A stretch of DNA of 35,003 bases, from assembly GCA_036001065.1 (NCBI GenBank), contig DASYUQ010000051.1:1-35003 (forward strand), written 5' to 3'. The first letter of the stretch is position 1. Every line of letters begins with the position of its first letter. The position numbers and the translations under genes are program-made. Below are positions 8,715 through 35,003 of this stretch, piece after piece. The notes beneath the pieces are model-generated. The model was not told the DNA's origin and made no database searches. It was given only the letters and a program-made list of their open reading frames with translations. Source of the DNA: Candidatus Methylomirabilota bacterium (GTDB lineage Bacteria; Methylomirabilota; Methylomirabilia; Rokubacteriales; CSP1-6).

Positions 8715-8717
8715 ACG

Positions 8718-14146: not shown

Positions 14147-14168
14147 CGCCTGAGCCCCCGGCGTCCGA

Positions 14169-19343: not shown

Positions 19344-20179
19344 CACTCGTTCCTCCTGCCCGACCGGAGCGCCGAGCGACCCAGCCCCGGCCCCCGCCCC
19401 CAAAAATGCTCCACGATGGCCCGCGCCAGGGCGGGGATCGTGTACTCCCGCGGCGTCACGTGCGTCGTGATCCCGTACTCGGCGGCCGTCGCCGCGGTGA
19501 CCGGTCCGATCGAGGCGACCGTCACCCGCTCCATCCAGGCGCGACGCTCCTCGTCACTGAACAGCTCGGCGAAGTTGCGCGCGGTCGACGAGCTGGTGAA
19601 CGTCACCGCGTCCACCGTCCCCCCGGCCAGCGCCTCCCGCAAGCGCGCGGCGCTGGCGTCGACCCGGCGGGTAGTATACGCAGGCACTTCCCTCACCGTC
19701 GCGCCGAGCCGCCCCAACTCTTTCGGCAGCACATCGCGCGTCTGCTCCGCCCGGGGCAGCAGCACGCGGTCGTGAGGCCCGATCTCGCCGCGCAGCCGCT
19801 CCACGAGCCCCTCGGCTCGATAGTCGGCGGGCACCGCGTGGGGGCGGAGGCCATGCTCGGCCAGCGTCTCGGCCGTCGCCGGACCGATCGCCGCCACCCG
19901 GAGGTGCCGGAACGCGCCCCAGCCCAGCCCACGCTCCCGGAGCCGGCGGTCCACCATGGTCACGCCGTTCACGCTGGTGAAGATCACCCATGTGAAGGTG
20001 TCCAGGCTGTCGAGCGCCCGGTCCAGCGGCGTCCAGGAGGGCGGCGGCTCGATGGCGATCATCGGCACCTGCAGCACACGGGCGCCCTCCGCCTCCAGCA
20101 GCTCGACGAACCGCTGGGCCTGCTCGGCAGCCCGCGTGACGACGATCGTCCGCCCCTCGAGGCCTCCAGCGGCCTTCAC
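19343..20179 (-). CDS. hemD: uroporphyrinogen-III synthase
   Basis: HemD cyclises hydroxymethylbilane to uroporphyrinogen III with inversion of ring D. It has 278 residues if the GTG at 20179, overlapping the hemC stop by four bases (GTGA), is the start. Another GTG at 20188 is possible. The family is poorly conserved, but [20 protein letters not shown] at the N-terminus, [45 protein letters not shown] and [16 protein letters not shown] are characteristic. The two-lobed fold is implied by the repeated FTS and IGP segments. The open frame continues far upstream antisense-like through hemC and is not coding there. Confidence 0.93.
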
Positions 20180-21123: not shown

Positions 21124-21132
21124 AGGCGCGCC

Positions 21133-22437
21133 TCAGTCGCCGGGGCCCCAGCCCCGGTCCGACTTGCGGCTCGCACGACCCAGCCCGAAGAGTTCGTGGA
21201 CCAGCTCCATCCAAGAGCGACCGGCGCCGGCCCGCGAGGACTCGCGCAGCTTCGTGATGGGGGCGTGCAGGATCTTGTTGACGATCGCGGTGGACACGGC
21301 CTCGATCGCCTCGCGGATCTCCGGTGAAGCGTTCGGCCGGCGCGCCAGCGCCTTGCGGACCTCCCCGATCCGGATCGCCTCCAGTCGGTCGCGCAGGGAG
21401 ACGATGGTGGGGATGATCGCCACGTCCGCGAGCCGGGCCAGGAACTTCGCCACCTCCCGCTCGACCAGGGCCTCCGCCCGCTGGGCCTCGCGGGCCCGCT
21501 CGCGCAGGTTGGAGTCGACCACCTGTTTGAGGTCGTCGATGTCGTAGCAGTAGACGTTGCCCAGCCCGCCCACGCTCGGCTCGACGTCGCGCGGCACCGC
21601 GATGTCGATGAAGAACAGTGGCCGCGCCCGCCGCCCGTGCATGATCCGCGCGACCGCCTCCCGGGTGACGATCGGCTGCGGGGCGCCCGTGGACGTGATG
21701 GCGATGTCCACGGCCGCCAGCGCGGTCGGCAGCTCCTCGAAGGGCACGGCCGTGCCCGCCAGGGCCCGGGCCACCTCCTGGGCGCGGGCCCACGTTCGGT
21801 TCACGACGTAGATGGGGAACGCGCCCTGCTCCAGCAGGTGCCGCGCCGCCAGCTCGCCCATCTTCCCGGCGCCCAGCAGCAGGACCGCCTTGCCGGTGAG
21901 GCCCGCGAAGATCTTCTTGGCCAGCTCGACCGCGGCGAAGGAGACGGAGACGGCGTGGCGTCCGATCTCCGTCTCCGTCCGCACCCGCTTGGCCACGGCG
22001 AACGCCTGGGTGAAGAGCGTGTGGAGGGTCGGCCCGACCGTCTCGCACGACCGGGCCAGCGCGAAGGCGTCCTTGACCTGGCCGAGGATCTGGGGCTCAC
22101 CGACCATCATGGAATCGAGGCTGGAGGCAACGCGAAACGCGTGGCGCACCGCCTCACCGTCGAGGTGCGTGTACAGGTAGGGTTCGAGGCTCGCCGGATC
22201 GAAGCCGCGGTGGCGGCAGAGGTGGCGGAACGCCACCGCCCGCGCCTCACCGGGTACGTCGGCCACGCCGTAGACCTCGACGCGGTTGCAGGTCGAGAGG
22301 ATGAGAGCCTCGTTCACCAGGCCGGTCGCCTGGACGTCGCGCAGGATCTCGCGGAGCTTGTCCTCCTCCACCGCGAGCTGCTCGCGGACGCCGACCGGCG
22401 CGGCACGGTGGTTCAAGCCGCTGGCGAAGAGCGTCAT
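21133..22437 (-). CDS. hemA: glutamyl-tRNA reductase
   Basis: HemA reduces glutamyl-tRNA to glutamate-1-semialdehyde with NADPH, the first step of the C5 heme pathway. The product is then used by HemL, encoded further down the operon. The protein has 434 residues and starts at an ATG overlapping the upstream stop by one base. The catalytic Cys50 lies in ILSTCNRVEVYG. SLDSMMVGEPQILGQVKDAF follows around residues 105-125, the nucleotide-binding VLLLGAGKMGELAARHL near 180, and FIDIAVPRDVEPSV near 290. A C-terminal dimerisation helix domain completes a normal architecture. Confidence 0.97.
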   Translation of the reverse strand: MTLFASGLNHRAAPVGVREQLAVEEDKLREILRDVQATGLVNEALILSTCNRVEVYGVADVPGEARAVAFRHLCRHRGFDPASLEPYLYTHLDGEAVRHAFRVASSLDSMMVGEPQILGQVKDAFALARSCETVGPTLHTLFTQAFAVAKRVRTETEIGRHAVSVSFAAVELAKKIFAGLTGKAVLLLGAGKMGELAARHLLEQGAFPIYVVNRTWARAQEVARALAGTAVPFEELPTALAAVDIAITSTGAPQPIVTREAVARIMHGRRARPLFFIDIAVPRDVEPSVGGLGNVYCYDIDDLKQVVDSNLRERAREAQRAEALVEREVAKFLARLADVAIIPTIVSLRDRLEAIRIGEVRKALARRPNASPEIREAIEAVSTAIVNKILHAPITKLRESSRAGAGRSWMELVHELFGLGRASRKSDRGWGPGD

Positions 22438-23243
22438 CAGGAGCCGTGCTTGCCCGGCAGGAACAGTCCCGCGCCCAGCGTCAGCACCAGCGCGACGAAT
22501 CCGACGATGGAGAAGTACGCGGCGCGCCGGCCGTGCCATCCGGCGGCGGCCCGCCCCGCCAGAGTCGCCGCGTAGATGGCCCAGGCGACGAACGAGAGCA
22601 TTGCCAGGGGGTCGAAGGCGAAGACGCTGCCCCAGGCGGCGGTCGCCCACAGCGCGCCGAGGATGATGCCCGTGGTGAGGAACGGGAAGCCGACGGCGAG
22701 CGTGCGGTACGTGAGCCGGTCGAGGGTCGCGAGCGCCGGCAGCCGGTAGTAGAACGCTCCAGGCCGCTTGGCCTTGAGCTGGCGCTCCTGGAGGAGATAC
22801 ATGAGCGCGCCGGCGAAGTTGAGGACGAAGGCGGCGATGCCGACGAGCGCCAGCGCGATGTGCACCCACATCCATGCGCTCGACAGCGCGCGGTCCACCT
22901 GCCCGAGGCTGAGGGGCCGGGCGGCGGAGGACACGCTCAGCATCAGCACGACGGGCAGCACGAAGGCGCCCAGGACCTTGACGCCGTACTGGCGCTCCAC
23001 CCACATCGTCAGCCCCACCGCCACCCACACCGCCACCGAGACGGCCTCCGTGAGGCTGCCGAGCGGGGGACGGCCCATCTCTACACCGAGCATGATGAGG
23101 GCGACGGTGTGACATGCCCATCCCGCAAGCGTCGCGACCGAGGCGAGGCGATGGACCAACTCCTCGCGCTGGATGAGATGGGCCAGGGCTAGCCCGGTGG
23201 CGCACACATAGGCGATGACGGCGAGCGTGAACACGGACGGCAT
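22437..23243 (-). CDS. CcsA/HemX-like cytochrome c assembly membrane protein
   Basis: This is a polytopic membrane protein of 268 residues with about eight helices. It belongs to the CcsA/CcmC/HemX superfamily that handles heme for cytochrome c maturation or modulates HemA. VFTLAVIAYVCATGLALAHL opens the first helix. SSAWMWVHIALALVGIAAFV and LDRLTYRTLAVGFPFLTTGI are family-like segments with a candidate heme-ligand histidine. The tryptophan-rich motif WGxxWxWDP of true CcsA appears only in weakened form (AAWGSVFAFDPLAML). Its position first in a hem operon, directly before hemA, is that of hemX in Bacillus. HemX-type and CcsA-type roles cannot be separated from sequence alone. Confidence 0.82.
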   Translation of the reverse strand: MPSVFTLAVIAYVCATGLALAHLIQREELVHRLASVATLAGWACHTVALIMLGVEMGRPPLGSLTEAVSVAVWVAVGLTMWVERQYGVKVLGAFVLPVVLMLSVSSAARPLSLGQVDRALSSAWMWVHIALALVGIAAFVLNFAGALMYLLQERQLKAKRPGAFYYRLPALATLDRLTYRTLAVGFPFLTTGIILGALWATAAWGSVFAFDPLAMLSFVAWAIYAATLAGRAAAGWHGRRAAYFSIVGFVALVLTLGAGLFLPGKHGS

Positions 23244-23261
23244 AACGTCAGATTTCCCAGG

Positions 23262-23267
23262 AGTTTA
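23262..23267 (-). promoter_or_regulatory. candidate -10 element upstream of the hem operon
   Basis: The minus strand shows TGGTAAACT in an AT-rich patch (23246-23282), 19 bases before the ATG of the CcsA/HemX-like gene. TAAACT resembles a -10 box with an upstream TG. No convincing -35 box is seen. The 85-base gap after fdhE is the only sizeable break before the hem operon, so a promoter is expected here. Confidence 0.3.
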
Positions 23268-23328
23268 CCATATTTCCGATGCGTGTCTGCGAGAGCCGAA
23301 CCCCGCGTCTGCTGGGGGGGAGACCCGC

Positions 23329-24204
23329 TCAGGCGCCGGGGCGGCTCGCCCGCTCGAGGTCGATGAGGGTCGGAACGGCGCGCCAGTACCCGGCGCGATG
23401 CGCTACCAGGTCGAGGTGGGGAGACCCCCAGTCCTCGACCAGCGCCGATCCGGCGTTCCAGCGGACGCGGCGATCGAGCTCCTTCAGGTAGCCGTGGCAC
23501 TTCCGGCAACCACCGATCAGGTAGCCTTCCTCCCTGTCTTCGGCCTGGAACTTGACGATGTCCTTCGAGTCCAGGCTGCCGCAATAGGAACACTTGAGCC
23601 GGGGAAAGATCCAGGCTCCGCCGCAGAGGTGGCAGGCCAGACGCCGCCCGCCGTTTTCCACGATGTCGGTGAACCCGGCCGGCGCGCCGCAGAACGGGCA
23701 GACGCCGAGCTCCCACACGCCGTCGCTGAAGTGCGCGCGGCACCCGGCGAAGTAGTCCTCCAGGACCGGGCGGAGAGCGCTTCCCGCGAGAAAGCCGAGG
23801 GCGTCCGGCTGTAGCCCGAGGCGCTCGCGGATCGTCGCGGATCCGAGCGTGCCCTTTCCCGGCAGGAGCGCCGCCGGCGTCACTTCACCCCCGTCCCACG
23901 CCTGGGCGAATCGCCGGAGCGCCTCGTCGTCCGTGCCGGCGGCGAACAGCAACTCCATCGCGGGAACCAGCAGGTCCTCGAGCGCCTCGGGCTCCACGAC
24001 CGGAGAGGTTTCGGCCAGGAGCGGAACGCCACGCCGCCAGCGCTCCCGACACTCGGCGGCCGTCCAGCCGAGCGGCGCAACGCGCTCGCCCGACCAGCGG
24101 CTCCAGGCCACCAGGATCTCGCGGTAGGCCTTCAGCGGCTCACGGAACGTCGGGCGCCGCTCGAGCAACGCCTCCCATTCCGCCAGAAGCGTGGCGTAGA
24201 TCAC
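23329..24204 (-). CDS. fdhE: formate dehydrogenase accessory protein FdhE
   Basis: FdhE is a cytoplasmic iron-binding protein needed for assembly of exported, Tat-dependent formate dehydrogenases. It has 291 residues and starts at a GTG with AGAGG eight bases upstream. The C-terminal half carries the rubredoxin-like CXXC pairs: CPFC, CHLC, CSYC and CRKC, in a context typical for the family (GVCPFCGAPAGF, LKCSYCGSLDSK, GGCRKCHGYLKE). The N-terminal half is helical and variable. It follows the membrane subunit of the formate dehydrogenase, separated by 76 bases holding a strong hairpin. Its expression may therefore be lower than that of the structural genes. Confidence 0.94.
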   Translation of the reverse strand: MIYATLLAEWEALLERRPTFREPLKAYREILVAWSRWSGERVAPLGWTAAECRERWRRGVPLLAETSPVVEPEALEDLLVPAMELLFAAGTDDEALRRFAQAWDGGEVTPAALLPGKGTLGSATIRERLGLQPDALGFLAGSALRPVLEDYFAGCRAHFSDGVWELGVCPFCGAPAGFTDIVENGGRRLACHLCGGAWIFPRLKCSYCGSLDSKDIVKFQAEDREEGYLIGGCRKCHGYLKELDRRVRWNAGSALVEDWGSPHLDLVAHRAGYWRAVPTLIDLERASRPGA

Positions 24205-24227
24205 TGGCTCGTCCTCTTTTTAAAGCA

Positions 24228-24256
24228 CGAGGGGCCCCGGCGAGCGGGGCCCCTCG
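24228..24256 (-). terminator. strong hairpin between the formate dehydrogenase structural genes and fdhE
   Basis: A perfect 12-base stem (CGAGGGGCCCCG with its complement, 24228-24239 and 24245-24256) encloses a five-base loop. On the minus strand the stem is followed by TGCTTTAAAAAG, which gives only a short U-run. It lies 25 bases after the stop of the NrfD-like gene and 24 bases before the fdhE start. It can act as a partial terminator or as a 3' stabiliser of the structural-gene mRNA. Confidence 0.65.
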
Positions 24257-24280
24257 ACTGACGCCGGCGCCGGGTCGGAG

Positions 24281-25222
24281 TTAGGACAGCACCCTCTGAC
24301 CCGCGACGATGATCACGTACTTGACCAGGAAGCCGCCGACGAGCACCAGCACTGAGACGAGCGCCGTCATGCCGGGGGTCGCCTTCCTGATTGCGCCCCC
24401 CACTTGCAGGAGCAGCGGGATCACCAGCCCCAGCCCCACGGCGCCCCCCCAGAAGAAGATGGCGTCGGAGCCGATCAGGAGTTGGGCCAGCGCCTCGCGG
24501 ATGCCCCGCGACCCGGTGGCCGAGACACTGACCACGAACAGCGCCAGGAACACCAGCTCGAGGATCAGGGCGAAGGCGGTGATCTTCATGAGGCGCGACA
24601 GCGAATCCGCGGTCCCGCCCCCGAGGAGGCTCAGGATCAAGGCGATGGCGGCACCACCGGTGGCGGCGCCGACCGCGAGGAACAGCGCGCCCAGCCAGTG
24701 GGCGCTGATAAACAGCGGCCGCGCGGTGGCGTCGAGCAGCACGCCCGGGTAGGCGGCGATGAAAAATCCAAAAACGCCGCCGACGATGCCGATGATGACA
24801 CGGGCGGGGCCGAGGCGCGGGTTGCCGCGGTCCTCCAGGAACGTCAGGAGGGCGGCCAGGAACGCGCAGGCGCTGAACAGCACGAGGGCCCAGGCCCCGG
24901 CGCTCATCGGGGAGAACGGCTTGAGATGGAATGGCCCGACGGTGATCGCGTACATGCCGATCGCCGTGGTCGGCTTGGACACCATCAGCATGTGCAGGAA
25001 CCGGCTCGGGATCCCGAGATCCACGGTCAGCAGGATCGGGCCCGGGATGATCGCCAGCAGCGCGACATAGTAGCCGACGCGCGTCAGGTCGCGGTAGCGG
25101 TGGGGGTCGAGGAGGCTGGCCACCGTGGCGATGACGAACGCGCCGCCGGCGACCCCCCCCAGGAAGAAGTAGAGGTCGATGAGGAGCGGCCAGTCGGCGC
25201 TCTTGAGGAGTCCGGGTTCCAT
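24281..25222 (-). CDS. formate dehydrogenase NrfD-type membrane subunit
   Basis: This integral membrane protein of 313 residues belongs to the NrfD/PsrC family, with eight or nine helices. The first hydrophobic stretch, LLIDLYFFLGGVAGGAFVIA, and ALLAIIPGPILLTVDLGIPSRFLHM are characteristic. It should anchor the FdhA-FdhB pair and pass electrons to quinone. The classical partner of FdnG-type enzymes is instead a diheme cytochrome b (FdnI); no histidine-ligand cytochrome b is present here. Its ATG overlaps the fdhB stop by one base, so the three structural genes are translationally linked. Function follows from context. Confidence 0.9.
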   Translation of the reverse strand: MEPGLLKSADWPLLIDLYFFLGGVAGGAFVIATVASLLDPHRYRDLTRVGYYVALLAIIPGPILLTVDLGIPSRFLHMLMVSKPTTAIGMYAITVGPFHLKPFSPMSAGAWALVLFSACAFLAALLTFLEDRGNPRLGPARVIIGIVGGVFGFFIAAYPGVLLDATARPLFISAHWLGALFLAVGAATGGAAIALILSLLGGGTADSLSRLMKITAFALILELVFLALFVVSVSATGSRGIREALAQLLIGSDAIFFWGGAVGLGLVIPLLLQVGGAIRKATPGMTALVSVLVLVGGFLVKYVIIVAGQRVLS

Positions 25223-25995
25223 CAGGCGCCCCCCTTCCCTCCGCGGTCGCGGAAGACCACGACCGCGCCGAGGCCGACCATGACGGCCGCGCCGATGGAC
25301 AGGAGCGAGTCGACCAGGACGTTGCCCTGGGGCAGCTTGGGGTTCTCGGGCAGGCCGTAGAGCGACGGCTTGGCCAGGAGCAGGAAGAAGGCGTTGAGCC
25401 CGCCCACCGGCCCGTTCTGATCCTCGCCGTAGAGCTGGGCGTCCTTAAAGCCCATCCGCTTGAGGTCCTCGACCCGCTTGCGGGCCTTGGCGGCCAGCTC
25501 GTCACGGTACCCGAACCTGATCGACTCCGTCGGGCAGGCCTTGGCGCAGGCGGGGCCGAGGCCGTTGTGGATGCGGTCGTTGCAGAAGGTGCATTTGGTG
25601 GCGGTGCCGGTGTCCTCGTTGTACGCGACCACGCCGAACGGGCACGCCGACACGCAGTACCGGCACCCGTTGCAGATGTCCTGGTTGATGTTGACGGTGC
25701 CGTACTCGGTCCGGTAGATCGCCCCGGTGGGACAGGCTTCCAGGCAACCGGCCTGGGCGCAGTGCTTGCAGACGTCCGACATCATGTGCCAGGTGAGGCC
25801 GCCCTGGCCATCCGTCTGCTCGAAGAACCGGACGAGCCGATAGCTCTTGTCCGTGAAGTGGGGGTGATTCTGGTAGGTCCCCGTCCACTCCGGCTCCTCT
25901 GGCGCGAGCTGGTTCCACTGCTTGCAAGCGACCTGACAGGCGCGGCAGCCGATGCACAGCGAGACGTCCGTGAACATCGCGAGCGTGCGGGCCAT
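25222..25995 (-). CDS. fdhB: formate dehydrogenase iron-sulfur (beta) subunit
   Basis: This four-cluster ferredoxin-type electron-transfer subunit has 257 residues. The cluster motifs are CIGCRACQVAC (residues 14-24), CKHCAQAGCLEAC, CNGCRYCVSAC and CTFC with ACAKAC, each followed by the proline usual for [4Fe-4S] ligands. A C-terminal hydrophobic helix (SLLSIGAAVMVGLGAVVVF) is present, as in FdnH, and would anchor it in the membrane. It sits two bases after the alpha subunit gene and overlaps the NrfD-like subunit gene. It has no signal peptide and is probably exported with FdhA by the Tat route. Confidence 0.95.
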   Translation of the reverse strand: MARTLAMFTDVSLCIGCRACQVACKQWNQLAPEEPEWTGTYQNHPHFTDKSYRLVRFFEQTDGQGGLTWHMMSDVCKHCAQAGCLEACPTGAIYRTEYGTVNINQDICNGCRYCVSACPFGVVAYNEDTGTATKCTFCNDRIHNGLGPACAKACPTESIRFGYRDELAAKARKRVEDLKRMGFKDAQLYGEDQNGPVGGLNAFFLLLAKPSLYGLPENPKLPQGNVLVDSLLSIGAAVMVGLGAVVVFRDRGGKGGA

Positions 25996-25997
25996 GG

Positions 25998-28900
25998 CTA
26001 CGACACCCCCTTCCGGACGTTGCAGAGGAGCGCTTTGGACTCCTGGATGAACGTCGTGGGATCGCCGAGGCTCGCCACCAAGTCGTTGGTGATGTCACCG
26101 CGGGCGGACTTCATGACGCCCTGGTAGCCCCAGTGCCACGGGATGCCGACCTGGTACACCTTCTTGCCGTCGATGATGAAGGGCTTGATGCGCTCGGTGA
26201 CCAGCGCCCGGACCTTGATCTTGGCCCGCGGCGTCTCGACGGTGATCATGTCGCCGTTCTGGATCCCGAGCTGTTTGGCCATCTCCGGCCCGATCTCGGC
26301 GAAGTGGCCGAAGAACAGCTCGGACAGCCACGGCACGTGGCGCGACATACCGGCCGCGTGGTGCTCCGTGAGCCGATAGGTCGTCAGGACGTACGGATAC
26401 TTGTCGGGGGTGCCGAGCTTGTTGAGGTCGCCGATGTCCCAGTACTTGGCCACCGGGTTGTTCTGCACCTTGGAGAGCAGGTTCTTGGTCGGCGACTCGA
26501 ATGGCTCGTAGTGCTCGGGGAACGGGCCGTCCACGACCGAGGCGAAGAATTGCCCGAGGCCGTGCGGGTTCATGATGAACGCGTCGGTGCCGCTGATGCC
26601 CTTGAGCGGGCCATCCTTGGCCCGCGGCGCGTCGGGCGCCAGCGTCGGGCCGAAGTCGGGCACGTCGAGGCCCACCCACTTCTTCTCGTCCTTGCTCCAC
26701 CAGATGAGCTTCTTCTTCTCGCTCCACGGCTTGCCCGAGGGGTCCGCCGAGGCGCGGTTGTAGAGGATGCGCCGGTTGGCCGGCCACACGAAGCCCCAGG
26801 TGTGGGCCAGGTAGTCGCCCTCCTTGGGCTTCTCGCGGCGGAGGGCCAGGTTCTTGCCCTCCTCGGGGTAGATGCCGGTGTAGATCCAGTTCCCGCAGGC
26901 CGTCGAGCCGTCATCTTTCAGGTGGCCGAAGGTCTTGAGCGGCTGCCCCTGCTTGTAGAGCTCCTTGCCGTCCTTCTCCTTGATGTCCTCCGTGGCGTAG
27001 CCGTTGCACTCCTTGAGCACCAGCTCCATGGTGGGCTCCTTCTTCGGGCCCTGGGGCTGGTAGTCCCACACGAGGTCGAGGATGGGCCGGTCCTTCGCGG
27101 CCTTGGAGTCCTTGTAGAGCGCCTTCACGCGGTTGCCCACGTCCACGACGAAGGCGGCGTCCGACCGCGCGTCGTCCGGCGGCTCCACGGCCTTCACATG
27201 CCACTGGGCCAGCCGCATGGTGTTGGTGATGGAGCCGTCCTTCTCGGCGGCCGGGGCGCCAGGGATGAAGAAGACCTCCACCTTGGAGGACTTGGGATCG
27301 ATCCCCGGCTCTTTCCAGACGGCGGCGGTGTCGGTCTCGAAGAGGTCGACGACGACCATCCACTCGAGGTTACGGAGCGCCGCCCGCACCATCTTGGCGT
27401 TCGGGCTATCGACCGCCGGGTTCTGGCCCATGGAGATGAACCCCTTCACGGCGCCCTTCAGCATGCCGATCGTGAAGTGCTGGTGCGAGTAGGCGTCGGC
27501 CTTCTCGCGCTTGGGCATGTAATCGTAGGCGAAGTCATTCTCCTTGGTGGCGGCCGGTCCCCACCAGGCCTTGAGCAGGCTCACGACGAACTTCGGGTTG
27601 TTGACCCAATAGCCCCCCTTCGGCGTCGTCTTCTCCAGGTAATCCGTGAAGGTCGGATGCGCCGCCTGGAGCGGCATCGGCGGGTAGCCGGGGAGCATGT
27701 GATAGAGGGTGCCGAAGTCCGTGGCCCCCTGGACGTTGGAGTGGCCGCGAAGGGCCACCACGCCGCCGCCCGGCCGACCCACGTTGCCGAGGACCAGCTG
27801 CAGCATGCAGAGGGCCCGGATCTGCTGGACGCCGTTGGTGGACTGGTTCAGCTGGAGCGCGTAGGATGCCGTGGCGGTCTTGTCACGCCCCGACGCCGAG
27901 CAGTAGGTCTCCGCCACCTTGAGGAAAAGATCCTTGGGGATCCCGCACACCCTTTCCACCATCTCCGGCGTGTAGCGGGAATAGTGGCGGCGCAGGCGTT
28001 GCCACACGGCGTTGGGATCGCGCAGCGTGGGATCCTTTTTCGGATAGCCATCGGCGTCGAGCTGGAACTTCCAGGTCGACTGGTCGTAGCTCCGCTTCTG
28101 CGCGTCAAAGCCGCTGAACACCCCGTCGAGGTCGGTCGCGGTCTTGAAGCTCGGATCGAGCAGCAGGGGCGCGTTGGTGTAGGCGACGACGTAGTCGTGG
28201 AAGTACTTCTTGTTCTCGATGGCGTAGCGGATGAGCCCGCCGAAGAACACAATGTTGGTCCCGGAGCGGATGGGCACCCAGATGTCCGCGGTGGCCGAGG
28301 TGCGCGTGAAGCGGGGATCGACGTGGATGATCTTGGCCCCGCGTTCCTTGGCCTTCATCACCCACTTGTAGCTGACCGGATGGCACTCGGCCCAGTTGGA
28401 GGTGGGCATGATCACGTCGGCGTTCAGGACGTCGATGAGGTTCGTCGTCATGGCGCCGCGGCCGAAGGTGGCGCCCAGCGCCGGCACCGTGGCCGAGTGG
28501 CACAGGCGCGCCGAGTTCTCGAGGTTGACGAGGCCCAGGCCCCGGGAGAGCTTGGCGATGAGGTAGTTCTCCTCGTTGTCGAGCACCGAGGAGCCGAGCC
28601 AGGCGACCCCCTCGCAGCGGTTGACCGTGATCTCCTTGTCGCCCGCCTTGGCCTTCTGGACGAACGTCTCGTCGCGCGATTTCCGGACCCGCTGGGCGAT
28701 CTGCTCCATCATCCAGTCCAGCGGTTTCTCCTCCCAGCGGTCGCTCCCCGGCGCGCGATACAGGCACTTCGTGATGCGCCGCTCGTTCATCGACACCTGG
28801 TAGGTGGACGAGCCCTTCGGGCAGAGCGCTCCCTCGGTATGCGGCGCGTCCGGATCCCCCTCGATGTCGATGATCTTGTTGTCCTTCACGTAGATCAGCT

Positions 28901-29072
28901 GCGCGCAGCCCACCGCGCAGTACGGACAGACGCCCGGGAAGACCTTGGCTTCCTTGATCCGGATCGAGGTGGCGGCGGCTTCCACCGGGGTCAGATCGAT
29001 GCCCTTGGTGGCGACGACCACCCCGGCGGCGCCGGCGCCAAATTTCAAGAATCCGCGTCGCGAGAGACTCAT
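25998..29072 (-). CDS. fdhA: formate dehydrogenase catalytic (alpha) subunit, cysteine form, Tat-exported
   Basis: This molybdenum (or tungsten) enzyme oxidises formate to CO2. The 1024-residue protein starts with a Tat signal (SRRGFLKFGAGAAG, residues 4-17). Its [4Fe-4S] ligands are Cys49, Cys52, Cys56 and Cys84 (CPYCAVGC...GALCPKG). The metal ligand is Cys191, next to His192, in SARLCHSATV; E. coli FdnG has selenocysteine at the matching place. LGATFGRGAMTTNLID and PTSNWAECHP are shared with FdnG/FdoG, and the C-terminal cofactor domain contains TYRLTEHHAAGM. The length matches FdnG (about 1015). The site faces the periplasm if Tat export occurs. Confidence 0.96.
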   Translation of the reverse strand: MSLSRRGFLKFGAGAAGVVVATKGIDLTPVEAAATSIRIKEAKVFPGVCPYCAVGCAQLIYVKDNKIIDIEGDPDAPHTEGALCPKGSSTYQVSMNERRITKCLYRAPGSDRWEEKPLDWMMEQIAQRVRKSRDETFVQKAKAGDKEITVNRCEGVAWLGSSVLDNEENYLIAKLSRGLGLVNLENSARLCHSATVPALGATFGRGAMTTNLIDVLNADVIMPTSNWAECHPVSYKWVMKAKERGAKIIHVDPRFTRTSATADIWVPIRSGTNIVFFGGLIRYAIENKKYFHDYVVAYTNAPLLLDPSFKTATDLDGVFSGFDAQKRSYDQSTWKFQLDADGYPKKDPTLRDPNAVWQRLRRHYSRYTPEMVERVCGIPKDLFLKVAETYCSASGRDKTATASYALQLNQSTNGVQQIRALCMLQLVLGNVGRPGGGVVALRGHSNVQGATDFGTLYHMLPGYPPMPLQAAHPTFTDYLEKTTPKGGYWVNNPKFVVSLLKAWWGPAATKENDFAYDYMPKREKADAYSHQHFTIGMLKGAVKGFISMGQNPAVDSPNAKMVRAALRNLEWMVVVDLFETDTAAVWKEPGIDPKSSKVEVFFIPGAPAAEKDGSITNTMRLAQWHVKAVEPPDDARSDAAFVVDVGNRVKALYKDSKAAKDRPILDLVWDYQPQGPKKEPTMELVLKECNGYATEDIKEKDGKELYKQGQPLKTFGHLKDDGSTACGNWIYTGIYPEEGKNLALRREKPKEGDYLAHTWGFVWPANRRILYNRASADPSGKPWSEKKKLIWWSKDEKKWVGLDVPDFGPTLAPDAPRAKDGPLKGISGTDAFIMNPHGLGQFFASVVDGPFPEHYEPFESPTKNLLSKVQNNPVAKYWDIGDLNKLGTPDKYPYVLTTYRLTEHHAAGMSRHVPWLSELFFGHFAEIGPEMAKQLGIQNGDMITVETPRAKIKVRALVTERIKPFIIDGKKVYQVGIPWHWGYQGVMKSARGDITNDLVASLGDPTTFIQESKALLCNVRKGVS

Positions 29073-29154
29073 AGCGACACCCCTCTTGTGTCAGACTTGG
29101 TTCGCAGACAGGCCTCGCCGTCCCTGCAGGCGTGGTCGCGCCATGGGCGGTACG

Positions 29155-29430
29155 TCAGATCTCCGGGCTGGCGATCTCTTCCCAGACACGACGCACCACG
29201 ACGATCTTCTCGGGGCGACCCCCCGCGGGCTCGACCTTGACGATGTCTCCGGGGTTCAGGGCTTCGAGTCCGGACTTCCCTTCGTCGCTGAGGACGACGG
29301 TCTGCTCGCTGCAACTCAACTCGGTGCAGACATCGGCCGCGCCCCTGACGCGCAGGCGACCCTTCGACGCGTCCACGTCAACGACCGTAAGGCGGGTCTG
29401 CTGCAGGCGCTCGGTGAGGCTCTGCGTCAT
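29155..29430 (-). CDS. conserved-looking small protein of the formate dehydrogenase locus, function unknown
   Basis: This 91-residue protein has its ATG preceded by GGAGG at seven bases, which decides the start (MTQSLTERLQQTRLTVVDVD). The C-terminal two thirds look beta-rich: GRLRVRGAADVCTELSCSEQ, ALNPGDIVKVEPAGG and KIVVVRRVWEEI, like a small beta-barrel. Two cysteines (CTELSC) are spaced by four residues. It has no signal peptide or membrane segment. It is the first gene behind the formate dehydrogenase promoter and precedes fdhA by 82 bases, so a link to assembly or regulation of the enzyme is likely. I do not recognise the family. Confidence 0.75.
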   Translation of the reverse strand: MTQSLTERLQQTRLTVVDVDASKGRLRVRGAADVCTELSCSEQTVVLSDEGKSGLEALNPGDIVKVEPAGGRPEKIVVVRRVWEEIASPEI

Positions 29431-29482
29431 CGCGGATCCTCCGAAGGACGTGAGAAGTCGGGCATTCGATCTAGTTGGCGGC

Positions 29483-29511
29483 ATCGTAATTTGGTCAGAC
29501 CAGACTGTCAA
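29483..29511 (-). promoter_or_regulatory. strong sigma-70-type promoter of the formate dehydrogenase operon
   Basis: On the minus strand a perfect -35 box TTGACA (29506-29511) and the -10 box TACGAT (29483-29488) are exactly 17 bases apart. This is close to the consensus and stands out in such a GC-rich genome. The predicted start is near 29476, giving a leader of about 45 bases before the GGAGG of the 91-residue gene. An 11-base palindrome fills the centre of the spacer. Confidence 0.75.
29492..29502. promoter_or_regulatory. operator-like palindrome inside the formate dehydrogenase promoter
   Basis: TGGTCTGACCA is a perfect palindrome around one central base, located between the -35 and -10 boxes. 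It fits the TnGTnnnACnA pattern bound by FadR-subfamily GntR regulators; E. coli FadR itself binds TGGTCnGACCA-like sites. A repressor bound here would block RNA polymerase. No GntR gene lies in the window, so the cognate regulator is unknown. Confidence 0.5.
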
Positions 29512-29550
29512 GCGCGCTGCGTCAGGCAATTCGCCTGGCTTGCCGCAGCT

Positions 29551-29904
29551 TCACAAGCACCTGCCGGTCCCGGGACCGCCCTCCGTCGAGCATGCTGGGG
29601 GGGCGTCCGGCGCGCGATCCTGGACCGCGTAGAGGGCCAGGCGGGCATCCAGGAGCTGGCGCGCCTCGTCGATGCGGCCCGCCTGAACCGACTCGATGAT
29701 GCGGGCGTAGCTGGCGCGATCCACCAGGGGGCCGTTGACGAGCGGATTGTAGAGACGACTCAGCTCGAGGAGGACGGGCTTCAGCCGCTCGAGATCGTCG
29801 AGGCTCGCCTCCGCCCGCTGGAAGAGCTCGAGCCCGGTGTCCTGGCGCTTCATCCGGCGCCAGTGCTTGCGCGCCTCCACCTCGTCCGGCGTCGGCTCAG
29901 CCAT
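29551..29904 (-). CDS. hypothetical protein downstream of fdhD
   Basis: This 117-residue protein has an ATG overlapping the end of fdhD by eight bases, which suggests coupled translation. It appears almost wholly helical: EARKHWRRMKRQDTGLELF, ASLDDLERLKPVLLELSRLY and ARIIESVQAGRIDEARQLLD. The last looks like half a TPR-type helix pair. The tail (about residues 97-117) is Pro/Gly-rich and contains two cysteines. No signal peptide, membrane segment or cofactor motif is seen. It sits between fdhD and the formate dehydrogenase promoter, so an accessory role is possible, but I do not recognise the family. Confidence 0.7.
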   Translation of the reverse strand: MAEPTPDEVEARKHWRRMKRQDTGLELFQRAEASLDDLERLKPVLLELSRLYNPLVNGPLVDRASYARIIESVQAGRIDEARQLLDARLALYAVQDRAPDAPPACSTEGGPGTGRCL

Positions 29905-30670
29905 GGGACACGCCCGCCGGCTCGGAGAGCAGGAGGCCGTCGCCGGCGTAGAGGTTGAGGCCGTCCGAGCGCACGTACCCGCAGACCGTGATGTTGAGCT
30001 GCTCGGCCAGAGCCACCGCCATCTCCGTCGGTGACGTCCGCGACGCGACGATCGGCACGCCCATCCGCGCGGCCTTGAGGAGCATTTCGGACGACACGCG
30101 CCCCGTCGACAAGAGGATCCGGTCTGGCGTGGGAATCCCGCGCAGCAGCGCTTCGCCCTTCACCTTGTCGACCGCGTTGTGACGCCCGACGTCCTCGGCG
30201 ACGATCAGCAGCTGCTCGCCGTCGGCGAGGGCGGCGCCGTGGATGCCGCGCGAAGTCTTGTAGTGGGCCGCGGCCGCGAAGAGATCCTTCATCCGGGCGC
30301 TGAGCTGCTCCGGGCGCACCTTGAGCGACGAGGCCAGGCGCGGGAACAGACGGTGATCGATCCGGAAGGTGATCCCGCCGCCGCAGCCGGAGGTGAGAAT
30401 CCGCTCCGAGGGCAGGGTGACCGGATGGGTCAGCGTCGCGTCCACGCGACCGTCGACCGCGGAAACCTCCAGGCGGGCGATCTCTTCGGGATCCGCGATG
30501 ACCTTCTCCATCCACAGGTAGCCGACGACCAGCGCCTCTATCTTCATCGGTGAGCACAGCAGCGTGAGGAAGCGCTCGCCGTTGACGTACATGGTCAGCG
30601 GAAGCTCCCGCACGACCTCGCCGCTGACCTCCTCGGCCCGGTCACCGCGGACTCTGAAGTACGTTCGCAT
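29897..30670 (-). CDS. fdhD: formate dehydrogenase accessory sulfurtransferase FdhD
   Basis: FdhD transfers sulfur from a cysteine desulfurase to the molybdenum cofactor of formate dehydrogenase, which is essential for its activity. I choose the ATG at 30670, with GAGG five bases upstream, giving 257 residues starting MRTYFRVRGDRAEE. The frame continues upstream into the palindromic repeat, and that part is not family-like. Conserved segments are LPLTMYVNGERFLTLLCSP, EALVVGYLWMEKVI, ILTSGCGGGITF, VAEDVGRHNAVDKVKG, LLSTGRVSSEML and ASRTSPTEMAVALA. The active loop holds one cysteine (SGCGGG) where E. coli has a CXXC pair. It lies near the enzyme genes, as is common. Confidence 0.95.
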   Translation of the reverse strand: MRTYFRVRGDRAEEVSGEVVRELPLTMYVNGERFLTLLCSPMKIEALVVGYLWMEKVIADPEEIARLEVSAVDGRVDATLTHPVTLPSERILTSGCGGGITFRIDHRLFPRLASSLKVRPEQLSARMKDLFAAAAHYKTSRGIHGAALADGEQLLIVAEDVGRHNAVDKVKGEALLRGIPTPDRILLSTGRVSSEMLLKAARMGVPIVASRTSPTEMAVALAEQLNITVCGYVRSDGLNLYAGDGLLLSEPAGVSHG

Positions 30671-30697
30671 CTCCGCCTCGCATTCTAGCAGCTTCCA

Positions 30698-30779
30698 TCG
30701 GAGGGGGCCTCGACGGCCCCCTCCGACACCTCCTCCAGGAAGGGGAAAACGTTGCGCCGGCAAAGCCGGCGCTCGAACC
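30698..30779. repeat. composite palindromic repeat, copy D (truA-fdhD gap)
   Basis: On the gene strand the order is a 19-base hairpin (30754-30772, arms GCGCCGGC/GCCGGCGC), a spacer containing CTGGAGGAGG, and a 29-base hairpin (30698-30726) with TCGGAGGGGGC/GCCCCCTCCGA arms. This is the same layout as the copy at 8718-8811. The element fills almost the whole gap from the truA stop to the fdhD ribosome site. Confidence 0.88.
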
Positions 30780-31505
30780 CTACTTGCGGGGGTAAAGGAC
30801 ACGCAGCAAGGTGAGGCCGTGCGCCGGCGCCGTCGGGCCCGCCCGGGTCCGGTCGCGCGACCTGAGAACCTCCCCGAGCCACGCGGGTTCGCGCGACCCG
30901 CGCCCGACTGCCACCAGGCTCCCGACGATGGTGCGCACCATGTGGTGCAGATAGCGGTCCGCCGAGACCAGGATCGCCAGGCGATGCCTGCGGCGCAGCA
31001 CGTGCAGGGCGCGGACGTCGCACAACGCCGGCGCGTCGCGGCCGGCCGCGGCGCAAAAGGCGCTGAAGTCGTGCCGGCCCCGCAGGCCCATCAGCGCTTG
31101 CCGCATCGCGCCGGCATCGAGCGTCCGGACGACGTGCCAGGCGTATCGCCGGAGCAGCGGGTTCGCGACCGGTCCGTTGTCGATGAGGTAGGCGTAGCGT
31201 TTGCCGATGGCGGCGCGCCGCGCCTGGAAGCCGGCGTCCGCCTCGGCGACCCCGGTGATACGGATGTCCGGGGGCAGCTCGGCGTTGAGCGCGCCCATGA
31301 CGGCCGCCGGCGATAGCGCCGCCTCCGTCGTCAGCGAGGCGACCTGGCGCAGCGCGTGGACGCCGGCGTCGGTGCGGCTGGCGCCGGTGACGCGCGTGGC
31401 CGGCCCCAGGAGCTTCCGCGCCGCCGCGACGAGGAGCCCCTGCACGGTGGGCAGCGTGGGCTGGAACTGCCACCCCGCGTAGGCGGTGCCGTCATACGAC
31501 AGCAC
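30780..31505 (-). CDS. truA: tRNA pseudouridine synthase A
   Basis: TruA makes pseudouridine at positions 38-40 of tRNA anticodon arms. The protein has 241 residues. The catalytic Asp46 lies in TGASRTDAGVHALRQVAS. YDGTAYAGWQFQP near the N-terminus and RRYAWHVVRTLDAGAM, GRHDFSAFCAA and DRYLHHMVRTIVGSLVAVGRG in the second half are typical. The GTG at 31505 gives a very short lead (VLSYDG), a few residues less than most TruA proteins. Upstream an in-frame TAA at 31542-31544 limits any extension, and no other standard start exists between, so this start is the best available. Confidence 0.93.
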   Translation of the reverse strand: MLSYDGTAYAGWQFQPTLPTVQGLLVAAARKLLGPATRVTGASRTDAGVHALRQVASLTTEAALSPAAVMGALNAELPPDIRITGVAEADAGFQARRAAIGKRYAYLIDNGPVANPLLRRYAWHVVRTLDAGAMRQALMGLRGRHDFSAFCAAAGRDAPALCDVRALHVLRRRHRLAILVSADRYLHHMVRTIVGSLVAVGRGSREPAWLGEVLRSRDRTRAGPTAPAHGLTLLRVLYPRK

Positions 31506-31541
31506 CAGACGGAGGACGCGTGCCGGCGGCGTGATGCGGAC

Positions 31542-31868
31542 TTAGCGGCGCCGGGACGCCCCGGGCGGCACCAGCGCCAGCCAGACGAGCGCGACCAGGA
31601 GGAAGAGGAAGACGTTGACGATCAGGTGCGTGGACACGTGGGCCAGACCGACCATGCGCCCTTTCTCGTCGAGCCAGCTCTGCCGGGCGAAGTCCTTCGG
31701 CTCGTAGTCGTGGGGATCGTAGCCGCCGATCGCACCGACGAACCGGGCGACACTGGGAACCACGGCGTAGGCCACGACGACGATCGTCAGGACGACCGCG
31801 ATGTGAAAGCGGGTGTGATATCCGAAGTGCCGGTGGTAGTACCGCCTGAGGCCGATGGGCTTCCCCAC
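31542..31868 (-). CDS. small two-helix membrane protein, function unknown
   Basis: This 108-residue protein starts at a GTG preceded by a GGGGAGGGG stretch, eleven bases after the asd stop. The N-terminus is basic and rich in His and Tyr (MGKPIGLRRYYHRHFGYHTR). A first membrane helix (FHIAVVLTIVVVAYAVVPSVA, about 21-41) is followed by a hydrophilic loop with GGYDPHDYEPKDFARQSW. A second helix (LIVNVFLFLLVALVWLALV, about 82-100) and a short basic tail close the protein. I do not recognise a family. It shares its transcript with asd and truA, neither of which suggests a membrane partner. The clustered histidines could bind metal or heme, but no standard motif is visible. Confidence 0.7.
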   Translation of the reverse strand: MGKPIGLRRYYHRHFGYHTRFHIAVVLTIVVVAYAVVPSVARFVGAIGGYDPHDYEPKDFARQSWLDEKGRMVGLAHVSTHLIVNVFLFLLVALVWLALVPPGASRRR

Positions 31869-31879
31869 CCCCTCCCCGG

Positions 31880-32887
31880 TTACGTGCGCAGCAGCAGCTC
31901 CGCGATCTGCACCGCGTTCGTCGCTGCGCCCTTGCGCAGCTGGTCACCGACCACCCAGAAGACCAGGCCGCGCGGGTGCGAGAGATCCTCGCGGATGCGG
32001 CCGACGTAGCAGTCGTCCTGCCCTTCGACCAGGATGGGCATCGGGTACCGGTGCGCGGCCGGCTCGTCCCAGAGCTTGAGCCCCGGGAACCGCGCGAACA
32101 GCTCCCGCGCCCGCTCGGCGGTGATCTTGGCCTCCGTCTCCACGTTCACGGCAACGGAATGACAGGTGAACACGGGCACCCGCACGGTCGTCGGCGAGAT
32201 CTGCAGATCCGGCAGCGCCAGAATCTTCCGCGCCTCGTTGACCAGCTTCATCTCCTCGCCCGTGTAGCCGTCGGGGCCGAACCGGTCGATGTGCGGGATG
32301 AGGTTGAACGCCAGCTGGTGCGGGAAGTGCTGCGGCACGATCGGTTCGCCCCGAGCCCAGGCGAGCGTCTGCTGGCGGAGGTCCTCGATGCCGCTGACGC
32401 CGGCGCCCGACGCCGCCTGGAAGCTCGTCGCCACCACCCGGCGCAGCCGGCCGGCGTCGTGGAGCGGCTTGAGCGGCATCACCGTGACGATCGTCGTGCA
32501 GTTGGGAACGGCCAGGATCCCCTGGTGCGTCTTGGCGACGTGACCGTTGATCTCGGGCACGACCAGCGGCACCTGCGGGTCCATCCGGAAGGCGCTCGAC
32601 TTGTCGATGACCACGGCCCCCGCCCGGCGAATCATCGGCACGAACTCCTTCGACTGCGCCGACCCCGCCGAGCAGAACACGATGTCCAGACCCCTGAAGG
32701 CGGGGGCCTCGACCCGCTGGACTGTGACGGGCTCGCCCCGGAAGGTGACCGTCTTGCCCACCGACCGCGCGGAGGCGAAGCAGCGGAGCTCGCGGATCGG
32801 GAACTTCCGCTCCTCCAGGACGCGGAGCGTCGTCTGCCCCGCCGCGCCGGTGGCGCCGATCACCGCGACCGCCACACCCGCTGCCAT
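31880..32887 (-). CDS. asd: aspartate-semialdehyde dehydrogenase
   Basis: Asd reduces aspartyl phosphate to aspartate semialdehyde with NADPH, at the branch to lysine, threonine and methionine (and diaminopimelate for the cell wall). The protein has 335 residues. The nucleotide-binding loop is VIGATGAAGQTTLRVLEER (residues 9-27), FCSAGSAQSKEF follows, and the catalytic Cys130 sits in AVPNCTTIVTVMPL. SFQAASGAGVSGIEDL and RVPVFTCHSVAVNVE with the late catalytic histidine are typical. The ATG overlaps the leuB stop by one base (TGATG). The leuB-asd pairing is common. Identification is firm. Confidence 0.97.
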   Translation of the reverse strand: MAAGVAVAVIGATGAAGQTTLRVLEERKFPIRELRCFASARSVGKTVTFRGEPVTVQRVEAPAFRGLDIVFCSAGSAQSKEFVPMIRRAGAVVIDKSSAFRMDPQVPLVVPEINGHVAKTHQGILAVPNCTTIVTVMPLKPLHDAGRLRRVVATSFQAASGAGVSGIEDLRQQTLAWARGEPIVPQHFPHQLAFNLIPHIDRFGPDGYTGEEMKLVNEARKILALPDLQISPTTVRVPVFTCHSVAVNVETEAKITAERARELFARFPGLKLWDEPAAHRYPMPILVEGQDDCYVGRIREDLSHPRGLVFWVVGDQLRKGAATNAVQIAELLLRT

Positions 32888-33990
32888 CAGTACTGAGCCT
32901 CCACCTCTCTCACGATGAGATCGGTCATCTGCCGGGTGCCGACCGTCCCGGTGCCGGCCGGCGCGACGTCGCGCGTCCGGTGGCCCTTTTCCAGGACGCG
33001 CAGCACGGCGGCATCCACCCGGTCGGCGTCGCCGGCCCGGTCCAGCGAGTACCGCAGGAGCATTCCGGCCGACAGGATCGCGGCGATCGGGTTGGCCACC
33101 CCCTGACCCGCGATGTCCGGCGCCGTCCCGTGCACGGGTTCGTAGAGCCCCATCGCGCCGCCGCCCGCCCCCACGAGGCCTAATGACGCCGAGGGCAGCA
33201 TGCCCATCGATCCGGCCAGGATCGCGGCCTCATCCGACAAAATATCACCGAAGGTGTTTTCGGTCACGATCGTGTCGAAGTGAGTCGGCTTCTGGACCAG
33301 CGCCATGGCGCAGTTGTCGACCAGCATGTGCTCGAGCGCGACGTCCGGGTAGTCGCGGGCGGTCTTCGTCACCACGTCCCGCCACAGCTGGGAAACGGCC
33401 AGCACATTGGCCTTGTCGACCGACGCCAGGCGCCGCCGGCGCCGGCGGGCCACGTCGAAGCCCACGCGCGCCACGCGCTCGATCTCCCGCGAGGTGTAGG
33501 TCATCGTGTTGATGGCGCGGGCGCGGCCGTCGGCGAAGTACTCCACGCCCCGCGGCTCGCCGAAATAGAGGCCGCCCGTCAGCTCGCGGACCACCATGAT
33601 GTCCGTTCCCTCGACCACCGAGCGCTTCAGCGGCGAGGCATCCACCAGCATGGGGAAGCACCGGGCCGGCCGGAGGTTGGCGTAGAGGTCCAGCTCCTTG
33701 CGGATGGCCAGCAGGCCCCGCTCGGGGCGCTGCTCCTGGGGGGCGCCGTCCCACTTCGGCCCGCCCACGGCGCCGAAGAGGACCGCGTGGGCCTCCCGAC
33801 ACAGCTTCAGGGTGTCGGGCGGCAGGGGCATGCCCGTCGCGTCGAGAGCGGCCCCGCCGACGAGCCCCTGCTCGAACTCGAAGCCGATCCCGGCGCCCTT
33901 GGCCACCGCCTGGAGCACCCGCATCGCTTCAGGAATCACTTCCTGGCCGATGCCGTCGCCCGGAAGCACCGCGACCCGGTAGGTCGTCAT
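32887..33990 (-). CDS. leuB: 3-isopropylmalate dehydrogenase
   Basis: LeuB oxidises and decarboxylates 3-isopropylmalate with NAD+, the third step of leucine synthesis. The 367-residue protein begins MTTYRVAVLPGDGIGQEVI. It has LFGAVGGPKWDG, LDLYANLRPAR, VRELTGGLYFGEPRG, SVDKANVLAVSQLWRD (active-site lysine), the metal-binding TENTFGDILSDEAA and EPVHGTAPDIAGQGVANPIA. The ATG overlaps the stop of the leuD-like fragment by four bases. A run of six arginines (ARRRRRRLASVDK) before the catalytic segment is somewhat extreme but sits where the family is basic. Identification is firm. Confidence 0.97.
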   Translation of the reverse strand: MTTYRVAVLPGDGIGQEVIPEAMRVLQAVAKGAGIGFEFEQGLVGGAALDATGMPLPPDTLKLCREAHAVLFGAVGGPKWDGAPQEQRPERGLLAIRKELDLYANLRPARCFPMLVDASPLKRSVVEGTDIMVVRELTGGLYFGEPRGVEYFADGRARAINTMTYTSREIERVARVGFDVARRRRRRLASVDKANVLAVSQLWRDVVTKTARDYPDVALEHMLVDNCAMALVQKPTHFDTIVTENTFGDILSDEAAILAGSMGMLPSASLGLVGAGGGAMGLYEPVHGTAPDIAGQGVANPIAAILSAGMLLRYSLDRAGDADRVDAAVLRVLEKGHRTRDVAPAGTGTVGTRQMTDLIVREVEAQY

Positions 33991-34121
33991 CGGGGCGTCA
34001 GGCCCTTCTTCTTCGCCACGTACTTCATGAGGCCTCCCGCGGCCATGATCTCGCGGGCGAACTCGGGGAGCGGGTGCGCCTGGTAGGTCTCACCCTTGAT
34101 GAGGTTGATCGTCATCGGCAT
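33987..34121 (-). pseudogene. leuD C-terminal remnant (3-isopropylmalate dehydratase small subunit)
   Basis: A 44-codon frame between leuA and leuB begins MPMTINLIKGETYQAHPL, continues PEFAREIMAAGGLMKYV and ends KKGLTPR. This closely resembles the last 40 residues of the short, thermophile-type LeuD (pattern ...GKTYKAxPLPxFxxEIxxAGGL...YxKK). The rest of leuD (about 120 residues) and all of leuC are absent, because leuA ends normally only 14 bases upstream. The stop still overlaps the leuB ATG by four bases, as an intact leuD would. The fragment may still be translated, but it lacks the residues needed for catalysis. A deletion or assembly join is the likely cause. Confidence 0.72.
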
Positions 34122-34135
34122 CGGCAGTCTTCTGG

Positions 34136-35003
34136 CTACGGGCCCACGTCCTTGGTGCGCTGCGTGCTGGCCTGCATCAACCGGTTGAGCGCGTTGAGGT
34201 AGGCGCGGGCGCTGGCCTCGATGACGTCCGTCGACGCCCCCTTGCCGGACACGACGGTCCCATCGAAGTCCACCTTCATCGACACCTCCCCGATCGCGTC
34301 CTTGCCCGACGTCGCCGCCCGGAGCGCGTAATCTTGCAGCCGCCCCTTCAGCCCGGTGATGGCGTCGATCGCGGCCAGGACCGCGTCCACCGGCCCATCT
34401 CCGACTCCGGAGTCCTGGAAGACCTGTCCCTCTTTGCGCAGGCGCACCGTCGCCGACGGCACCACGCCGGTGCCGCTGATGACGTGGAGGTAATCGAGGT
34501 CGTAGGTCTCGGGGATCTTCGTCGCCTCGTCGGTGACGATGGACACCAGATCTTCGTCGTAGACCTCCTTCTTCCGGTCGGCCAGGTCCTTGAACTTCTT
34601 GAAGGCCCGGTCCAGCTCGGGGCCGGCCAGCTCGAACCCTAGGTCTCGGAGTCGGGCGGCCAGCGCGTGGCGTCCGGAGTGCTTGCCGAGCACCAGCTTG
34701 TTGGACGCCCGCCCGATGTCCTCCGGCCGCATGATCTCGTAGGTGAGCTTCTCCTTGATCACCCCGTCCTGGTGGATGCCCGCCTCATGGGCGAAGGCGT
34801 TGGCCCCCACCACGGCCTTGTTCTTCTGAACCACAAAGCCGGTCAGGTCCGAGACGAGGCGGCTCGCCCGGTAGAGTTCCTCCGTGCGGATGCCTGTGGA
34901 CAGGCTGAAGCTGTCCGAGCGCGTCCGCAGGGCCATCACGATCTCCTCCAGGGAGGCATTGCCCGCCCTTTCGCCGAGGCCGTTAATTGTGCATTCCACC
35001 TGC
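34136..35003 (-). CDS. leuA: 2-isopropylmalate synthase, C-terminal part
   Basis: LeuA condenses acetyl-CoA with 2-oxoisovalerate to start leucine synthesis. The frame is open to the window edge (about 288 residues seen of a usual 500-530), so the catalytic TIM-barrel start lies outside. Visible are VECTINGLGERAGNASLEE, the metal-site segment HEAGIHQDGVIKEKLTYEIM, LGKHSGRHAL, and the C-terminal leucine-sensing domain (about the last 130 residues), with SGTGVVPSATVRL, GDGPVDAVLAAIDAITG and FDGTVVSGKGASTDVIEASARAYLNALN. Presence of the regulatory domain implies feedback inhibition by leucine. It ends at a normal place, followed after 14 bases by the leuD-like remnant. Confidence 0.96.
   Translation of the reverse strand, partial: QVECTINGLGERAGNASLEEIVMALRTRSDSFSLSTGIRTEELYRASRLVSDLTGFVVQKNKAVVGANAFAHEAGIHQDGVIKEKLTYEIMRPEDIGRASNKLVLGKHSGRHALAARLRDLGFELAGPELDRAFKKFKDLADRKKEVYDEDLVSIVTDEATKIPETYDLDYLHVISGTGVVPSATVRLRKEGQVFQDSGVGDGPVDAVLAAIDAITGLKGRLQDYALRAATSGKDAIGEVSMKVDFDGTVVSGKGASTDVIEASARAYLNALNRLMQASTQRTKDVGP

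Follow-up and report, generated by a model that had tools for sequence, protein, structure and literature searches.

The window, by which we mean the whole stretch of 35,003 nucleotides analyzed here, carries on its minus strand a set of formate dehydrogenase genes headed by a promoter with a palindrome between its two boxes. The features at this locus are as follows.

29506–29511, minus strand: −35 box TTGACA, letters read from the sequence; TTGAC is kept with the operator core in 33 of 47 homologous regions
29492–29502, minus strand: putative operator, the perfect palindrome TGGTCTGACCA in the promoter spacer; its core GGTCNGACC is conserved
29483–29488, minus strand: −10 box TACGAT, letters read from the sequence; TANNNT in most homologs
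29438–29442, minus strand: ribosome-binding site GGAGG of the leader gene, read from the sequence
29155–29430, minus strand: gene of a 91-residue leader protein, which heads the genes behind the promoter; without an NCBIfam or Pfam family
25998–29072, minus strand: fdhG, formate dehydrogenase-N alpha subunit (TIGR01553, 1177 bits against a cut-off of 814)
25222–25995, minus strand: fdhH-like iron-sulfur subunit (TIGR01582, 219.7 bits, under the cut-off of 334.7)
24281–25222, minus strand: NrfD-like membrane subunit (TIGR03148, 60 bits, under the cut-off)
23329–24204, minus strand: FdhE-like accessory protein (TIGR01562, 45.5 bits, under the cut-off)

The genes follow the promoter in the order leader, fdhG, fdhH-like, NrfD-like, and FdhE-like, all on the same strand, with 52 nt between the promoter and the ATG of the leader gene at 29430. 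FdhG can be placed among the formate dehydrogenase-N alpha subunits because its score exceeds the TIGR01553 cut-off; it has a twin-arginine-type start, and its gene is free of in-frame TGA. Comparison of the leader protein with NCBIfam and Pfam returned no family and, at E values up to 1, just one subthreshold Pfam match. This protein is found in 45 of the 57 family genomes (60 match rows) and has two invariant cysteines, C35 and C40; its closest named record, at 91%, is from Rokubacteria bacterium 13_1_40CM_69_27 (Candidatus Rokubacteria). Its low-confidence structural model (pLDDT 70) consists mostly of beta strands. Another small protein with no assigned family, 117 residues long, is encoded between fdhD and the promoter (29551–29904, minus strand) and has a relative at the same place on contig C82 of the same genome. 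At about 7605–14759 on the minus strand, an alternative complex III-like gene set was recognized by eye, with multiheme cytochrome, iron-sulfur molybdopterin-like, NrfD-like, and cytochrome c subunits.

The sequence-only reading of this DNA had described TTGACA and TACGAT on the minus strand, 17 nt apart, with a perfect palindrome in the spacer, and both the letters and the coordinates are correct: TGGTCTGACCA lies 3 bases from each box and, with both strands scanned at up to two mismatches, has no second occurrence in the window. That reading also held that the promoter stands out. The boxes are present as described, but a match of this quality is by itself expected by chance (1 found against 0.9 expected in the region 20000–35003). 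A promoter of such quality together with a spacer palindrome whose arms have at least 5 bases is rarer, at 0.06 per shuffled window in a null made of single-base shuffles. The assignment of the palindrome to the FadR subfamily holds as well, as its TGGT and ACCA arms around CTG fit the common consensus of that subfamily, TKGT/ACMA boxes in which GT and AC are usually 3 nt apart (PMC4494728, excerpt).

The assembly contains two divergent blocks of the order fdh-fdhD-truA-asd-leuB-leuA, one in the window (25998–35003) and one on contig C82 (G000:C82:1-7443), with identities of 38–81% depending on the gene. The window contig and C82, which also carries the regulator gene described below, are separate contigs with one block each, and the two blocks may reflect a true duplication or a mixed assembly. 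Among the three fdh-type copies examined in this genome, the one on contig C171 is without a site and the one on C82 has CGGTCTGACCG in its promoter spacer. This spacer site supersedes what had looked like a site on the start codon of the leader gene in the C82 fdh copy (one mismatch, −10).

Conservation was followed in the 260 nt upstream of each homologous leader gene, in the 47 strong rows, from 43 genomes, among 60 leader-protein matches (the 13 weaker ones aside). In 30 of these 47 regions TGGTCNGACCA is present with one mismatch or none, and in 17 it is exact; 200 shuffles average 0.44 such regions and never exceed 3, a null in which the kinship of the genomes is ignored; the best of 29 permuted palindromes, under a null that likewise ignores relatedness, reaches 4 of 47. 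The core GGTCNGACC is found behind a TTGAC box with at most one mismatch in 33 regions, 29 of them exact and 4 with one mismatch. Anchoring on the promoter gives 35 regions with the core behind TTGAC, including 2 with two mismatches that are left out of the 33. The spacer is 17 or 18 in all but one of these 35 anchored regions, and the centre base of the palindrome varies freely (T in 13, C in 10, A in 7, G in 5). A free centre base combined with a kept position is characteristic of a two-fold protein site and not of the promoter itself, and it is the conservation across homologous regions that lifts the site above chance. The earlier reading had named loss of the palindrome from orthologous promoters as the outcome that would overturn it; instead, the exact core stands behind a TTGAC box in the fdh promoters of 28 genomes. 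Between 12 and 14 of the 47 upstream regions are without a site, the higher figure applying when at most one core mismatch behind TTGAC is required, and the genomes concerned belong to several genera (G023–G026, G035, G036, G038, G044, G046, G049, G050, and G054).

A scan of the source genome, which the earlier reading had proposed, found TGGTCNGACCA just three times: ahead of fdh, ahead of an operon on C82 that resembles oxalate oxidoreductase, and ahead of nuoA of complex I on contig C152. The reversed control occurs once. Counting of the 12-mer CTGGTCNGACCA across the 57 genomes was set aside as proof, as the motif is hardly enriched genome-wide (103 strand matches against 84 for the reversed control). 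Of 12 sites in ten regions that were read, 4 have no sensible target, and at least one of these four is inside a coding gene (RND-pump-like). A site precedes nuoA in both genomes looked at and a ferredoxin gene in G006, G007, and G008, though not in G031. At single loci there are further arrangements: in L085, L086, and L092 the site precedes a 7Fe-type ferredoxin gene; in L085, L092, and L183 it precedes an Opp-type ABC transporter operon; and in L085 genes for a thiolase and a CoA-transferase related to formyl-CoA transferases come after.

The operon on C82 encodes gamma-delta, alpha, and beta subunits, a Tct transporter, a TerC-like protein, and a GntR regulator. The best solved relative of alpha is the Moorella oxalate oxidoreductase (5c4i), with 325 bits compared with 203 for a pyruvate enzyme, and its aligned residues YPIRPY, R, D, and F, which we take to serve in oxalate binding, follow the oxalate enzyme and not the pyruvate one, at YPIRPY as well as in the loop after it. 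We call the operon OOR-like because its subunits fall under the NCBIfam equivalog cut-offs for oxalate oxidoreductase (alpha 370 bits against 500, beta 344 against 590, gamma-delta 78 against 230). In each of the 27 OOR-like promoters examined the site has one mismatch at most, against a shuffle mean of 0.285, and 19 of the sites are exact. In 24 of the 27 the operator starts 1 or 3 nt past the assigned −10 box (G043 and G018 differ; in G030 the box is weak but the distance is also 1 nt), a position in which it would cover the transcript start.

The two sets of promoters differ in layout. In 27 of 27 OOR-like promoters a further GACC is found exactly 8 bp on from that of the palindrome (shuffle mean 0.23, maximum 3), compared with 1 of 30 fdh promoters (G043, L018) and none of 5 ferredoxin or nuoA promoters. 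Among relatives from other classes, GACC recurs at +8 in 11 of 12, at +16 in 8, and at +24 in 6. Tandem GACC units with an 8-bp pitch follow the palindrome in L189–L198 as well as in the 27 OOR-like promoters, and some loci have as many as three additional ones. On the opposite strand the array is a series of TGGTC units, one every 8 bp, with the palindrome at its end. The additional half-sites probably hold further GntR dimers, perhaps cooperatively. Nature seems to have provided a promoter set in which the same regulator meets either a single palindrome or a tandem array.

The sequence-only reading had proposed control by a GntR-type protein, and there is indeed a fitting gene, linked to the site through gene order and also, in other classes, through its position behind the operator. 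The reading therefore stands, and both a regulator and a regulon can be named. The gene (G000:C82:16323-17090, minus strand) follows the Tct transporter and TerC-like genes within the OOR-like cluster and encodes a protein whose two domains both exceed their Pfam cut-offs (GntR 86 bits against 27, FCD 103 against 24.3), so by sequence it belongs to the FadR/FCD subfamily of GntR regulators. Copies with 69–100% identity are present in 44 of the 57 family genomes, and in 15 genomes the gene shares a contig with the fdh leader gene, at a distance of 14–18 kb. In the genome studied here the leader gene neighboring it is the C82 copy and not that of the window. The G052 ortholog is on one contig with both the fdh and the OOR-like genes of its genome. 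Of the 28 genomes with an exact fdh site, 6 have no full copy of the regulator (G001, G003, G018, G021, G040, and G041); in G003 a fragment lies at the end of a contig, and the other five assemblies are fragmented or incomplete. Several genomes without an fdh site nonetheless have the regulator.

Inside the family, none of 23 regions upstream of the GntR gene has a site, as the gene is there an internal member of the OOR-like cluster. In the phylum's other classes a relative of the regulator (43–54% identity) is the first gene behind the operator, and in 10 of 13 such loci the site, with at most one mismatch, lies 39–57 nt before the GntR start; of the others, L200 has a site with one mismatch at 132 nt, L201 one with two mismatches, and L199 none. 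Four loci of order-level or greater distance have the GntR gene inside the cluster; L185 is the one among them that extends to the OOR-like start, and its site is exact. At L201 the relative has 47% identity, and in the operon that it heads the alpha and delta subunits score above the oxalate oxidoreductase cut-offs (598 bits against 500 and 262 against 230).

Over 55 aligned GntR sequences, D164, H168, H212, and H234 are invariant and align with the D, H, H, H positions of LldR (2di3), so the effector domain has the quartet that serves in metal-dependent FCD sensors of the LldR type. Also invariant are E53, R54, R64, E69, and G87, which match the winged-helix DNA-contact residues E34, R35, R45, E50, and G66 of FadR, a correspondence made by motif and not by structural alignment (FadR residues from a table in PMC4494728, excerpt). 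The AlphaFold2 model of the regulator (pLDDT 85) is of the GntR-FCD type. A fold search with this model adds little because its best matches, although GntR proteins, have whole-chain TM-scores of only about 0.4–0.5.

Taken together, we think it probable that the palindrome is the operator of a repressor of the C82 type, that the OOR-like operon is under the same control, and that a small metal-chelating acid, most likely oxalate, releases the repressor. A dimer of the FCD GntR protein (C82:16323-17090 and its orthologs) would occupy the palindrome between the −35 and −10 boxes, covering the spacer and blocking RNA polymerase at the fdh promoter; we infer repression from the position of the site. 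The same protein would sit just past the −10 box of the OOR-like operon, where the added half-sites could hold that operon, and with it the regulator's own gene, more tightly. Entry into the FCD pocket of the small metal-chelating acid used by the OOR-like enzyme would then free the DNA, turning on acid oxidation and formate dehydrogenase together with, in single lineages, complex I (nuoA) or ferredoxin.

As the first ligand candidate, oxalate has about an even chance. It is favored because of the OOR-like enzyme and because a metal-type FCD pocket would suit a chelating dicarboxylate. The sequence-only guess of a C1 or C2 acid as the ligand likewise gains some indirect support from the probable co-control of the OOR-like operon. 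A path from oxalate to formate by way of oxalyl-CoA decarboxylase was set aside, as none of 16 matches in the source genome passes the cut-off of 739 bits (best 384), which, like the OOR-like subunit scores under their cut-offs, counts against oxalate. The fdh genes may just respond to whatever small acids or low-potential electrons are supplied.

A reading to which we give a little less than even chances keeps the operator but changes the ligand to glyoxylate, pyruvate, formate, or an acyl-CoA, with an OOR-like enzyme that is not an oxalate enzyme. The subunit scores under the oxalate oxidoreductase cut-offs and the failure of any protein in the source genome to pass that for oxalyl-CoA decarboxylase both fit this reading, and FCD proteins as a group bind many carboxylic acids (PMC4494728, excerpt). 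Against these points stand the nearness of alpha to the Moorella enzyme, in score as in its aligned residues, and the L201 operon, headed by a related GntR, whose subunits do pass the cut-offs. It is improbable that another regulator binds the fdh operator. The source genome encodes four FCD GntR proteins (on C82, C20, C48, and C67), all with both domains, and sites of the FadR subfamily look alike; however, the C20 and C48 proteins are 38–39% matches whose like is found in some genomes only, against 44 of 57 for the C82 type, the stretches examined around these genes are free of TGGTCNGACCA, and it is the C82 type that stands behind the site in other classes.

Only slightly less improbable is that the GntR protein acts from the spacer as an activator, in the manner of MerR. 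Promoters activated in this way can have a dyad centred in a spacer of 17 or 18, which is what the fdh promoters show, but such spacers are of normal length, the OOR-like sites cover the expected start, and FCD proteins mostly repress from such positions. The least likely reading by far is a chance palindrome in a conserved promoter with no regulator at all. In its favor, promoter matches this good are to be expected by chance, and the motif shows hardly any enrichment over whole genomes, yet position is kept and the centre base left free in many genera, and the site recurs in 27 of 27 cases at a second, unrelated promoter. These conservation counts strongly disfavor chance.

More tentatively, and with somewhat less than an even likelihood, an oxalate-sensing FCD regulator conserved throughout Methylomirabilota may run an electron-intake regulon, with lone and 8-bp-extended palindromes grading repression by cooperative dimers. 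If this is true, the regulon would comprise the OOR-like enzyme, ferredoxin, formate dehydrogenase, and complex I, with the lone palindrome at fdh and the extended one at the OOR-like genes and gntR, a blend of a FadR-type dyad and a NanR-type repeat.

Among the open-licence papers listed, judged by title and abstract opening, we found none on a GntR operator of a formate dehydrogenase or a regulator of an oxalate oxidoreductase; the proposed regulon is new, and the kind of regulator is already known. Rokubacteria are common in soil. They are described as uncultivated (PMC8780371, excerpt), and their formate dehydrogenase is usually explained by methanol oxidation (PMC5103831, excerpt). The switch shared by fdh and the OOR-like genes suggests a main signal, and perhaps a food, in small dicarboxylic or 2-oxo acids such as oxalate. 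The finding offers a candidate ligand, a candidate regulator, and a DNA site that are directly testable.

The proposed system combines likenesses to several known ones without belonging to any of them by NCBIfam cut-offs. The C82 regulator scores below the equivalog cut-offs for PdhR (117 bits against 330), LldR (124 against 311), GlcC (96 against 301), and FadR (36 against 249). LldR of Corynebacterium glutamicum (2di3), a lactate regulator, has the same domain build and the aligned D, H, H, H positions but shares no targets with it. FadR of E. coli has a site of the same subfamily with a core close to TGGTCNGACCA; the two NCBIfam models of FadR, however, give 36 and 41 bits against cut-offs of 249 and 189, and the targets here are not fatty-acid genes. 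On the enzyme side, the oxalate oxidoreductase of Moorella thermoacetica, the best solved relative of the coregulated alpha subunit, converts oxalate to CO2 and low-potential electrons without CoA (PMC5020499, excerpt), but the rokubacterial subunits remain under its equivalog cut-offs.

NanR of E. coli, an FCD GntR protein for sialic acid, gives the C82 regulator its highest NCBIfam score, 156 bits, which is below the cut-off of 260 for membership. In NanR sites the 8-base unit TGGTATAW is directly repeated (PMC4494728, excerpt), and three dimers fill them cooperatively (PMC8012715, excerpt); the half-sites of the OOR-like promoters are likewise 8 bp apart. The array here differs in opening with a true palindrome, TGGTCNGACCA, and the fdh promoters have the palindrome alone. 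PdhR of E. coli, whose ligand is pyruvate, recognizes the box AATTGGTnnnACCAATT with a GGTnnnACC core. It controls a 2-oxoacid-oxidizing complex together with the respiratory genes ndh and cyo (PMC7660256, excerpt). The targets here are other ones, and the half-sites have a fixed C/G within them (TGGTC) and lack conserved AAT flanks. The proposed system nonetheless works like PdhR, in that an FCD GntR protein would act through a GGTnnnACC core and here join the OOR-like operon, fdh, and nuoA.
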